This document shows positions 18,301 to 55,487 of a DNA stretch of 64,000 nucleotides, one piece after another. The notes under the pieces were generated by a model. That model was not told the origin of the DNA. It was given only the letters and a program-made list of their open reading frames with translations, and did no database searches. The stretch is from an uncultured Bacteroidales bacterium (GTDB taxonomy: Bacteria; Bacteroidota; Bacteroidia; Bacteroidales; UBA932), in the NCBI GenBank assembly GCA_944326225.1, contig CALVDI010000003.1, positions 16,061-80,060 on the forward strand. Reading direction: 5' to 3'. Each line of letters opens with the position of its first letter. Position 1 is the stretch's first letter. The position numbers were made by a program, and so were the translations under genes.

Positions 18301-18338
18301 GAGAGTGTACCACAGATGCTTGATAGTAGTACACTCTT
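18301..18338 (+). repeat. 38-bp palindrome A (REP-like)
   Basis: The arms GAGAGTGTAC and GTACACTCTT lie 18 bp apart; 9 of 10 arm positions pair as Watson-Crick and the tenth is a G-T wobble. It is the first of six copies with identical 10-18-10 geometry around the transposase gene. Confidence 0.85.
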
Positions 18339-18384
18339 CGAGGGATTTTGCGGTATTTGCCCCATATAGGAATGTTTTTACTTG

Positions 18385-18422
18385 GAGGGTGTACTATTTT
18401 TCAGAAAAGAAGGTACACTCTC
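18385..18422 (+). repeat. 38-bp palindrome B (REP-like)
   Basis: The arms GAGGGTGTAC and GTACACTCTC have the same 18-bp spacing, with one G-T wobble. It ends 29 bp before the -33 box of the transposase promoter. Confidence 0.85.
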
Positions 18423-18450
18423 CGAAGTGAAACTTCGTAGAGTAAATAAA

Positions 18451-18482
18451 TTTGTTCTCATCTCGGCTTCTTAGTATATTTG
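18451..18482 (+). promoter_or_regulatory. Promoter of RAYT-1
   Basis: TTTG (18451-18454), 20 bp, then TATATTTG (18475-18482). The in-frame TTG at 18480 lies inside the -7 box, which rules it out as a start and supports the ATG at 18522. Confidence 0.75.
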
Positions 18483-18521
18483 CAAAGACTTTCATTAAAT
18501 GATTACAAGGAAGAGAGAGAC

Positions 18522-19448
18522 ATGGGCAGGAGATTGTATCATATCTGTTTTACCTCTCACAATGAGGTACTTTGCCGAAGTTATAAGGATTACTGCATGA
18601 TGTTCAACTGCATTGCACAGGCTGTGTTCAAGACTGGCAGCAGTCTGTTGGCTCATGCCATAATGTCTACGCACGTACACATGATTGCCGTATGTGCCGA
18701 TCCGTCCAATCTGGTAATGCGGATAAGAACTTCGTATACACAGATGTTCAATCACCGTTACAAGCGCAAGGGAGCATTGGGGGAGAAGGCTTTCTTCTGC
18801 AGTAAGCTTGAGGGACGGCGTCATATCGCAGCCGCGATAAGTTATGTCATACGCAATCCCTACCATCACGAAGTGTGCGCAAACCTTTACTCCTATCCGT
18901 TCTCTTCCGTCAATCAGTATTTTAAGAATAAAATACAATCCTTTTCTCCTGTAACGGAAGCTGTGTTTCGAAGGAAAAAGTCGGATATTATACGGATAAA
19001 AAATCATCTGCCCGATGACGTTGATGTTTTGAGGTCAACCGGCATGATCTCATATGACGATGTGGTAGACAGTGTTTTGGTAGAGGGTTATTTCGGATCG
19101 TACCGCGCTTTTCTGTTCGGTCTTAACCGTAATGACTATGAGCGATGGATGCGGGAGCAGGAGGAAGATGACGATGGTCTGCCGCCGGTTACGCTCGGAA
19201 CTGTGGAGGCTTTTCTGCCGGATAGTGAGGTGCAGCTGATCTTGAAGCAGAATCAGCATTGGGTCAACGAGAAACGTGTTTCGGATATTGAGTTGTGCGA
19301 TATTATAGACCATCAGTGTGTACCGCGTTATGGGAAAGTCAGTTATGTACAGCTTTCCCATTCCGAGGTGGATGATGTGCGCCAGAGCCTTGCAGATGCG
19401 TTACGGGTATCGCAGGGGCAGTTGGAGAGGTGTTTGCCATATTCTTAG
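18522..19448 (+). CDS. REP-associated tyrosine transposase (RAYT), copy 1
   Basis: The 308-residue protein belongs to the Y1 transposase family (IS200/IS605-related, Transposase_17-like). HUH is His51-Val-His53 in STHVHMIAV, and the probable nucleophile is Tyr108 in ISYVIRNP. These enzymes nick and move single-stranded palindromic DNA. About 170 C-terminal residues extend beyond the catalytic domain, ending in a helix-turn-helix-like segment (VDDVRQSLADALRVSQGQLERCL). The start at 18522 (MGRRLYHICF) follows an AGGAAGAGAGAGA tract and lies downstream of the promoter. Six 38-bp palindromes flank it, two upstream and four downstream. It has no classical IS ends, so it is a domesticated-type RAYT, not an autonomous IS. 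Confidence 0.88.
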   Translation: MGRRLYHICFTSHNEVLCRSYKDYCMMFNCIAQAVFKTGSSLLAHAIMSTHVHMIAVCADPSNLVMRIRTSYTQMFNHRYKRKGALGEKAFFCSKLEGRRHIAAAISYVIRNPYHHEVCANLYSYPFSSVNQYFKNKIQSFSPVTEAVFRRKKSDIIRIKNHLPDDVDVLRSTGMISYDDVVDSVLVEGYFGSYRAFLFGLNRNDYERWMREQEEDDDGLPPVTLGTVEAFLPDSEVQLILKQNQHWVNEKRVSDIELCDIIDHQCVPRYGKVSYVQLSHSEVDDVRQSLADALRVSQGQLERCLPYS

Positions 19449-19474
19449 TTTTGTTTTGTGGAGACTGATGATGC

Positions 19475-19512
19475 GGGAGTGTACCATTTCCCCGAAATAT
19501 CGGTACACCCTC
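19475..19512 (+). repeat. 38-bp palindrome C (REP-like)
   Basis: The arms GGGAGTGTAC and GTACACCCTC have the standard 18-bp centre; the pair is less regular at two positions. It begins 26 bp after the transposase stop. CGTAG directly follows the right arm. Confidence 0.78.
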
Positions 19513-19592
19513 GTAGAGGCTATCCTGTCTCGTCGCCTCCGCAACCCATTCTCGTCGGCATTTACATCTCCCCTCACATCTCCCCTCCACAC

Positions 19593-19630
19593 GAGAGTGT
19601 ACCACGAGGGTGGGAAAATGGTACACTCTT
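19593..19630 (+). repeat. 38-bp palindrome D (REP-like)
   Basis: The arms GAGAGTGTAC and GTACACTCTT extend inward by CCA... and ...TGG-type pairing (ACCA/TGGT). The centre ends GGGAAAATG, shared with copy E. Confidence 0.85.
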
Positions 19631-19686
19631 ATTTGGGAAATGGATGCTGTGCCGTTTGTAGTGGCTTGTGGATGGCTGGCAATATG

Positions 19687-19724
19687 GGGAGTGTACGTGA
19701 AGCATGGGAAAATGGTACACTCTC
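19687..19724 (+). repeat. 38-bp palindrome E (REP-like)
   Basis: The arms are GGGAGTGTAC and GTACACTCTC with an 18-bp centre. The last nine centre bases equal those of copy D, suggesting recent duplication of D/E. Confidence 0.85.
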
Positions 19725-19792
19725 GTGGGGGAGGAGTAGGGTATGCCCGTCGAGAAGTGTTTATGAGTGTGGTGCGTATAGAATCTATGGGT

Positions 19793-19830
19793 GAGGGTGT
19801 ACGGATAATGTGGAGGAATGGTACACTCTC
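19793..19830 (+). repeat. 38-bp palindrome F (REP-like)
   Basis: The arms are GAGGGTGTAC and GTACACTCTC with an 18-bp centre. It is the last recognisable copy; nothing similar follows up to kbl. Confidence 0.85.
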
Positions 19831-54142: not shown

Positions 54143-54994
54143 ATGGAAAAGAAAAATTGGCATATCTGTACGGAAGGGCTTGAGGATGACCTTATATTCA
54201 AAAGTGCCGGCGATTTTGTGTACGGGATGAACGGAGTGCCTGTATGTGCGTTGACCAGCGGTGTTTCCATCCTGTGCTTCTGTTTAATGGACAATCATGT
54301 GCATTTTATTGTCAATGGGACGGAGGCTGACGGAGAGCGATTTATCAGACAGTATCTGCGTCGGTTGTCGCGCCTGGTCAGGATACCGGTGGAGAAGGCC
54401 TCGATGAAACTGATAGACGATGACGAGTATCTCAGGCAGGCTGTAGGATATGTCCTGCGCAATCCGGTCAAGGCTTACAATGTCATGCCTGCGGCTTATC
54501 CGTGGGGCTCGGGAGCACTGTATTTTGATGACTGTGTGATTGCTGCTCGGCACAGCGATTACGATACTGTGTCGGCAATAGGTGTCGTGAAGATGAGGAA
54601 GCTGCTGTGTTCGCGGGTGAGACTGCCGGACGATTACAAGGTGTCGCCTGACGGAATGGTGTGCCCGGAGTGTTATGTGGATATCAGTGCGGTAGAGGAA
54701 CTTTACAGTAACAGGCCGGCCAGGATGATGTACTATCTTTCGGTTAATAAGGACATGGAGATGGAACTCTCCGGCGACATGCTTCACAAGGCCAAGTATC
54801 GGGATGCGGACCTGCTCGGTACGGTCAGTGATATATGCCGCGAGTCTTTCTCGAAAAACGGGCCGGCGGATTTGCGGCTGGAGGACCGTTACCGTCTGGC
54901 TGACATTCTCCGCCGCAGATACGGTCTGGGGATTAAGCAGCTTGCCCGTCTGACCGGGACAAAACCCGCATTGCTCAAAATCGTTCTCAAATGA
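54143..54994 (+). CDS. REP-associated tyrosine transposase (RAYT), copy 2
   Basis: The 283-residue protein is a second Y1 transposase of the RAYT kind. HUH is His52-Val-His54 in MDNHVHFIV, and the probable nucleophile is Tyr103 in GYVLRNPVKA. The C-terminus has a helix-turn-helix-like end (LADILRRRYGLGIKQLARLTG then TKPALLKIVLK). It is clearly divergent from copy 1 and slightly shorter, so it is not a recent duplicate. It is flanked by a shared 15-bp repeat on both sides and a 38-bp palindrome about 360 bp downstream. Confidence 0.85.
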   Translation: MEKKNWHICTEGLEDDLIFKSAGDFVYGMNGVPVCALTSGVSILCFCLMDNHVHFIVNGTEADGERFIRQYLRRLSRLVRIPVEKASMKLIDDDEYLRQAVGYVLRNPVKAYNVMPAAYPWGSGALYFDDCVIAARHSDYDTVSAIGVVKMRKLLCSRVRLPDDYKVSPDGMVCPECYVDISAVEELYSNRPARMMYYLSVNKDMEMELSGDMLHKAKYRDADLLGTVSDICRESFSKNGPADLRLEDRYRLADILRRRYGLGIKQLARLTGTKPALLKIVLK

Positions 54995-55186: not shown

Positions 55187-55357
55187 GGTTTGTGAGGTGA
55201 AAGTGCTGATTATTAAGCAATTGGTAAGTATGAAAGATGCGCGTACATCCCGTAAATGCACCGGTGCAGAGTATCGTAGGTGGTGGGCCTGGTCTTTTCG
55301 ACCGCCTGCCTTCAACGCTGTCAAAGGAATGAGTGTGGTATGCGGATTTGTCGGGGG

Positions 55358-55395
55358 GAAAGTGCCCTGGATTCGCAATGAATTGGTACACTTTC
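55358..55395 (+). repeat. 38-bp palindrome G (REP-like)
   Basis: The left arm GAAAGTGCCC and right arm GTACACTTTC have the same 10-18-10 geometry as copies A-F; 8 of 10 arm positions pair. Outside the unit GG/CC extends the stem. The outer bases differ from A-F (GAAAGTG against GAGAGTG), matching the divergence of the nearby transposase. Confidence 0.65.
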
Positions 55396-55487
55396 CCAAA
55401 GGGACTGCATGAGGGTTGCCGACTGGAGTGGCTGCGGTTGACTTGTTGCGGCCTGCTGATGTGACTGGCCGGTGTGCTGGGGGTGGA

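Follow-up and report, generated by a model that had tools for sequence, protein, structure and literature searches.

In the REP/REPIN systems of E. coli and Pseudomonas, a RAYT gene is flanked by palindromes that have dispersed copies, and the repeat and its enzyme diverge together. A REPIN is a doublet of two inverted REPs mobilised as one unit. The hairpin of a canonical REP bears a GTAG tetranucleotide at its 5' foot. The enzymes of canonical REPs carry a guide-reading motif, W94-Q95 (PMC6006769). Other RAYT-like genes, known as TIRYT or TIRtrons, are flanked by inverted repeats (PMC3733652) and belong mostly to TnpA-REP subclass 2.1 (PMC6006769). The sequence GGGGWSAS is common to only some TIRs according to PMC3733652, and PMC6006769 reports having found nothing REP-like in the vicinity of subclass 2.1 genes. 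Subclass 2.6, equivalent to Bertels group 5, comes mostly from Bacteroidetes and has atypical flanking secondary structures that are copied elsewhere; its proteins have a median length of 179 aa and the motifs NH[LIV]H, WQ and YIH[QN]NP (PMC6006769). The original prediction for the locus described here had rested its novelty on the rarity of such systems outside Proteobacteria. This ground is not supported, since PMC6006769 already describes subclass 2.6, a mostly Bacteroidetes RAYT subclass with atypical flanking structures.

The locus lies in a stretch of 64,000 nucleotides from an uncultured Bacteroidales bacterium, which we call the window and which was analysed as a whole. Its features are as follows.

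18301..18338, no strand: palindrome A, 38 bp, arms matching at 9 of 10 positions
18385..18422, no strand: palindrome B, 38 bp, arms 9 of 10, 84 bp after A
18522..19448, + strand: RAYT-type HUH/Y1 transposase gene, 308 aa from ATG
19475..19512, no strand: palindrome C, 38 bp, arms 8 of 10
19564..19587, + strand: tandem duplication of 12 bp within the C-D spacer (C to D is 118 bp here and 106 bp in three sister loci)
19593..19630, no strand: palindrome D, 38 bp, arms 9 of 10, 118 bp after C
19657..19661, + strand: TGTAG in the D-E spacer, 30 nt after CAC (about 40-42 in the spacers of other clades)
19687..19724, no strand: palindrome E, 38 bp, arms 9 of 10, 94 bp after D
19793..19830, no strand: palindrome F, 38 bp, arms 9 of 10, 106 bp after E

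All six 38-bp palindromes were located at the predicted starts, and the predicted layout, two upstream and four downstream of the transposase gene, is the one found. The arms had been described as 10 bp long. Their inner part, GTGTAC...GTACAC, is perfect in all six palindromes, but over the full 10 bp the arms match at 9, 9, 8, 9, 9 and 9 positions and none is perfect. Allowing up to two mismatches, GTGTAC-N18-GTACAC has seven matches in the window compared to 1.21 expected and a maximum of five in 100 shuffles. The exact matches are the six palindromes only; the seventh, an inexact match at 55362, lies inside a palindrome of another arm type (type II). In the frame used below for all clades, the window type reads GAGAGTG-N24-CACTCTC. 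Folded as single-stranded DNA, 44-nt pieces of the six palindromes give predicted energies of -5.4 to -9.9 kcal/mol (z -2.1 to -5.1), and the predicted structures are mostly a stem with an open loop.

The reading frame of the gene opens at a TTG at 18480 and ends at 19448 (322 aa). The ATG at 18522 is the likely start because the corresponding frame of the clade I RAYT of G015 (L036) has a TAG four codons past the upstream TTG, before the ATG. The protein falls under the cut-offs of both curated models for RAYT / TnpA-REP, scoring 21.2 bits with Pfam Y1_Tnp (cut-off 23) and 35.7 bits with NCBIfam NF047646, the REP-associated tyrosine transposase (cut-off 80). All 34 relatives match Y1_Tnp at E <=1 and NF047646 at E <=0.01, and H65, H67, Y122 and N126 (322-aa numbering) are invariant in all 34 aligned relatives. 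The protein thus has the HUH pair and single catalytic tyrosine by which RAYT / TnpA-REP proteins are recognised. A profile of the 34 relatives matches the E. coli-type TnpA-REP structure 4er8 (E 2.6e-4); together with the HUH and tyrosine residues, this match upholds the prediction that the gene amid the palindromes is of the RAYT type. Its motifs are THVH, LGE and YVIRNP. We found no W in the aligned region of any of the 34 relatives, and hence no W94-Q95 motif, with the alignment of the most distant rows being unsure. The window protein also has a long C-terminal extension. TIRYT / subclass 2.1 proteins are marked by a helix-turn-helix (HTH) domain at the C-terminus. For the window protein, an AlphaFold model built from a four-sequence input is poor (mean pLDDT 43) and places three C-terminal helices at 269-318 (pLDDT about 60-78); three HTH Pfam models each match one of the 34 members weakly (E 0.045-0.081).

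The window contains a second, distant RAYT-type gene at 54143-54994 (+ strand, 283 aa), 22-26 % identical to the first. About 360 bp after it, at 55357-55396, lies the type II palindrome, GGAAAGTG-N24-CACTTTCC, whose arm type is unlike that of the six.

We counted type I copies, those with arms of the window type, with up to two mismatches in a genus sample of 19 genomes, 16 of which have some RAYT match. The window genome (G000; 1.99 Mb, 83 % complete) has ten: the six at the locus, a pair on contig C28 with a 105-bp spacing, and single copies on C14 and C2. The repeats flanking the window gene are therefore also dispersed in its genome (six flanking, four elsewhere), as for RAYT genes. The copies sit between long ORFs that we take as genes, and short frames (81-158 aa) overlap them. 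A clade I RAYT is found in four of the 19 genomes (G000, G009, G012 and G015) at 98-100 % identity. These four hold 10, 8, 19 and 11 type I copies respectively, 48 in total; six per genome are at the RAYT locus and 4, 2, 13 and 5 are away from it (24 of 48), with one G012 copy doubling as type II. The 15 genomes without a clade I RAYT have two copies altogether, one in G014 with two mismatches and one exact in G017, and 13 of them have none. The original prediction had proposed looking for further copies in this genome and for their scarcity in relatives lacking this RAYT. Both were observed, with four copies beyond the six and near-absence from the relatives (two copies in 15 genomes vs 48 in four). 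At loci L022-L024 all six palindromes recur in unchanged order; B differs at one arm position, and the centres have some changes. Judged by length, the contigs of these loci are identical with G009:C13, G015:C8 and G012:C6 and therefore bring no additional evidence.

Paralogues in the genus and in its relatives, compared at 73-38 % identity, are accompanied by palindromes with other arms:

Type II: GGGAAAGTG-N24-CACTTTCCC
Type III: GGAAGGTG-N24 (N23 in L043; L039 has GAAGGAGT)
Type IV: GAAGGTG-N24
Type IVb: GCAGGTG-N23/24
Type V: CCRCAACGGCA-N18-TGCCGTTG
Clade VI, more distant: ATGTTAG-N41/42
Clade VII, more distant: AAGGTG-N29

Most of clades I-IV share the frame GTG-N23/24-CAC with differing arms. 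Clades I, II, III, IVb and V have palindromes upstream as well as downstream of the gene, and downstream copies only were seen in clade IV. At E <=1e-20, a RAYT match is present in 49 of the family's 199 genomes, spread over 8 of 25 genera. A fragment of a related gene also occurs at the end of a contig in the record of Muribaculum sp. An289, a culturable relative. We retained 85 loci, related and not independent, after removing L022-L033, any frame shorter than 600 nt and a single locus that gave no match. At 43 of these, at least two palindromes with the same arms and the same length occur within 500 bp of the gene, compared to none in 415 first-order shuffles and none in 54 window controls. 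Such pairs are found at 31 of 38 loci with at least 32 % identity and at 12 of 47 below this value; 35 of the 42 loci without a pair are under 32 %. For other genera, 15 of 20 loci have a same-arm pair, and eight of the 15 have palindromes of 38-48 bp at a spacing of 72-73 bp. Clade groups had been set beforehand from identity and arms. A branch of the tree separates each of clades I, III, V and VI from the rest (support for III is only 87/53), and IV is apart from IVb. Arm similarity correlates with protein identity over 23 representatives (Mantel r 0.25, p 0.0007), a weak signal that comes chiefly from pairs above 70 % identity.

The copy numbers of types I and III/IV follow the RAYT clade. 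With up to one mismatch, III/IV arms number 106, 96, 96, 77, 73, 27, 26, 23 and 23 in nine genomes with a gene, or part of a gene, of clade III, IV or IVb, three of which rest on fragments assigned by the tree (L044, L060 and L061) and one of which, G011, has IVb only; the other ten genomes have 0-3 and the reversed control gives 0-2. The copy numbers of types II and V do not track RAYT presence. Type II arms occur 16 times in G011, the genome with the clade II gene, and 20, 10, 15 and 14 times in the four clade I genomes, where no clade II RAYT was found; five further genomes have 1-4 and nine have none. Type V arms occur 85, 46, 37 and 19 times in four genomes with a clade V gene; where none was found they number 130, 58, 42, 42 and 25 in five genomes, 6-13 in six, 1 in one and 0 in three. 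In G007, 7 of the 85 type V copies are beside the gene. A one-to-one match between repeat type and RAYT clade, which we considered, thus fails for types II and V. For types I and III/IV there is good support for a link between the clade of the enzyme and the arms of its repeats. It is conceivable that RAYT genes are missed elsewhere, as incomplete assemblies breaking at repeats could hide them. The largest number, 130 type V palindromes, belongs to G010, in which a clade V RAYT was not detected.

Constant length around a free centre had been predicted for the palindromes. Searching the 19 genomes with exact type I arms (GAGTGTAC/GTACACTC) and any spacer from 3 to 33, we found N18 in 18 of 19 copies and N17 in one; exact type V arms with a free spacer gave N18 in 74 of 75 and N20 in one among the matches listed. 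The length is therefore nearly constant as expected, but the centre is patterned and not free: in abundant families it tends, by eye, to an A/T tract, a CG-rich middle and an A/T tract. A conserved inner stem in the centre was rejected as inconsistent between types, also by eye. The length of the repeated unit proved to be different from the predicted 38 bp. Solo copies (22 type V, 14 type II and 10 type I, the last set including two with type II arms) have a conserved block of about 42-44 bp, and the flanks of the 22 type V copies have little common sequence beyond about 44 bp. From this comparison we dropped 38 bp as the unit in favour of about 42-44 bp. A 105-bp unit ending in TGTAG was rejected as the mobile element since its spacer is present in few solo copies: scores above 0 were obtained for 3 of 22 solos of type V, 2 of 14 of type II and 4 of 10 of type I, as well as for 1 of 12 last type V copies.

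Arrays are built as palindrome-spacer-palindrome. Neighbour spacings below 140 bp at RAYT loci are 72 (13 cases), 73 (3), 83 (2), 84 (3), 85 (1), 94 (4), 104 (4), 105 (15), 106 (22), 117 (2), 118 (5) and 127 bp (1), forming clusters near 72, 84, 94, 105, 117 and 127 bp. The step from cluster to cluster is about 11 bp, which is expected for sites that share one helix face. The 12 distinct values give R 0.785 at 10.5 bp with a best period of about 11, and the six cluster centres give 11.0 bp (p 0.0003), in a test that is post hoc and uses spacings of related loci that are not independent. Among the dispersed type III matches listed, two places with 39 bp and one with 120 bp fit this pattern poorly or not at all. 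Within the genus, many of the compared spacers resemble one another. Among the distinct spacers listed, TGTAG is present in all 9 of type III, in 6 of 14 (type V), 2 of 3 (type II), 2 of 4 (type IVb) and 3 of 10 (type I), and in none of the 8 of type IV. It stands mostly at a single offset, about 40-42 nt past the CAC in spacers that have one and 30 nt in the D-E type, and it occurs in either orientation relative to the gene.

Related genomes differ in these arrays. One orthologous type V site with the same flanks has 44 bp and one palindrome in G001, 149 bp and two palindromes in G003, G008 and G010, and 464 bp and five palindromes in G007, the steps being exactly 105 bp; in G002 only one flank was matched. 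This array, with one, two or five units depending on the species (L176, L245, L246, L253, L261), is a possible typing marker. A two-palindrome array on G012:C22 is absent at the matching site in all three sisters (G000, G009 and G015). G012:C8 and G015:C25 have an array in common that is missing from the G000 stretch; in G009 a shorter sequence, unrelated to it, takes its place. A copy after the end of a gene in G000:C2 and G015:C49 is absent from G012:C18, whose alignment goes no further than the stop codon. For G012:C6, the matching G000 stretch was not found within the piece compared. The absent arrays compared have no clean empty site or junction, and no target site can be named. Presence and absence between relatives support the mobilisation advanced in the original prediction only indirectly, and the lack of a clean junction speaks against it. 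Stop-free runs have a median of 519 nt at 120 palindrome centres vs 414 nt at 949 random positions, a crude comparison biased by locus edges that at face value points, if anything, against avoidance of open frames.

We consider it probable, judging from sequence, that the locus represents a divergent RAYT-repeat system in which the palindrome is the substrate of the RAYT and copies spread. The gene would encode an HUH/Y1 single-strand-DNA transposase-like enzyme with a long C-terminal extension, and the substrate would be the palindrome of about 42-44 bp with half-sites at a constant distance (GTG-N24-CAC for the window type). The RAYT, probably as a dimer, would recognise both half-sites, and a dimer measuring palindrome length would fit the data. 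The palindrome may be processed as single-stranded DNA, and the RAYT may insert it, or a palindrome-spacer-palindrome block, at new sites, with mobilisation being rare. Arrays would gain or lose whole units (105 bp at the compared site) with recombination shaping them, and the palindromes may be placed on one helix face. Directly observed are the co-location of gene and palindromes, arms that vary with the clade, a near-constant geometry, copy numbers that go with the RAYT clade for types I and III/IV, array variation by unit steps, and presence or absence between relatives.

Some of the same observations can be read in other ways. The near-constant distance between half-sites, the spacing clusters about 11 bp apart as on one helix face, and the two copies just upstream of the gene would all suit double-stranded operator sites, selected and immobile, for the C-terminal part of the RAYT or another regulator. 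We regard this as unlikely given up to 130 copies of one type per genome, many of them arrayed, their one-sided presence between sister genomes, and arrays that change by exact 105-bp units. Those exact steps also resemble recombination between repeats, and solo palindromes resemble deletion products. It could be argued that host processes alone (replication slippage, recombination and gene conversion between palindromes) spread the copies with the RAYT as neighbour or passenger, the more so as type II and V copies occur where no matching RAYT was found. That the arms vary with the RAYT clade, and that type I and III/IV copies are nearly absent without it, makes this explanation distinctly unlikely.

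Lastly, the palindromes may be terminal repeats of a RAYT-carrying transposon and no separate mobile unit, since they bracket the gene in each of clades I, II, III, IVb and V, like the inverted repeats of TIRtrons (PMC3733652). This is very improbable when 24 of 48 type I copies are found elsewhere than at the RAYT locus, only 7 of the 85 type V copies of G007 stand beside the gene, and the flanks of 22 solo type V copies are alike over about 44 bp and little beyond. 

A bolder version of the RAYT-repeat reading can be proposed only tentatively. We hypothesize that these genes may form an undescribed Bacteroidales RAYT class of paralogues, each with a private palindrome of constant length. The palindrome would be read as a double-stranded dimeric site that is defined by the geometry of the DNA, with about three turns between half-sites in clades I-IV and a phasing of the arrays at about 11 bp, and not as a GTAG-tagged hairpin; the arrays would serve as assembly platforms.

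These results extend RAYT-repeat systems in gut Bacteroidales, and many paralogous enzyme-repeat pairs in one genus offer natural controls. Differing arms on a similar frame could provide a route to how a RAYT recognises its repeat without a GTAG tag. The arrays might also break assemblies.

The system resembles canonical REP/REPIN in having flanking palindromes with dispersed copies and arms that diverge with the enzyme, and differs from it in the long centre of nearly constant length. No GTAG was found directly at the 5' foot of any of the six palindromes, whichever strand is read, or in the foot consensus of dispersed copies. With no GTAG foot and no W94 motif, these are therefore not canonical REPs, and we rejected that assignment.

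CRISPR arrays consist of short palindromic repeats at regular spacing. The likeness here is superficial and lies in the regular short palindromes, for example 44 + 28 bp in other genera. It ends with arms that go with the adjoining RAYT, with spacers that are in many cases alike within the genus, and with repeats that also occur solo. Palindromes of 38-48 bp at 72-73 bp spacing in other genera (L278, L279, L281-L283, L286-L288) might be miscalled as CRISPRs.

In the open-licence literature we found no description of a fixed-length-palindrome RAYT system in its present form. Subclass 2.6 is similar in its mostly Bacteroidetes hosts and in a gene flanked by atypical structures with copies elsewhere (PMC6006769). 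We rejected membership on protein motifs and length: the window protein has 308-322 aa, THVH, no W and YVIRNP. The nearest known systems are TIRYT/TIRtrons. According to PMC3733652 and PMC6006769, they share with the present system an HUH/Y1 RAYT-like protein longer than the canonical one and inverted repeats that are not GTAG REPs; some of the repeats are self-complementary and form moderately abundant families with dimers or clusters. The Y and W motifs here are unlike those tabulated for subclass 2.1 in PMC6006769, and its Y motif (YIELNP or Y[IV]HLNP) is found in none of the 34 relatives. GGGGWSAS is absent, by eye, from the type I-V arms, the nearest sequence being GGGGAAAG of type II. 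Compared to TIRYT/TIRtrons, the present system thus combines arms without GGGGWSAS with a length that is near fixed over clades I-V, clustered spacings and up to 130 copies.
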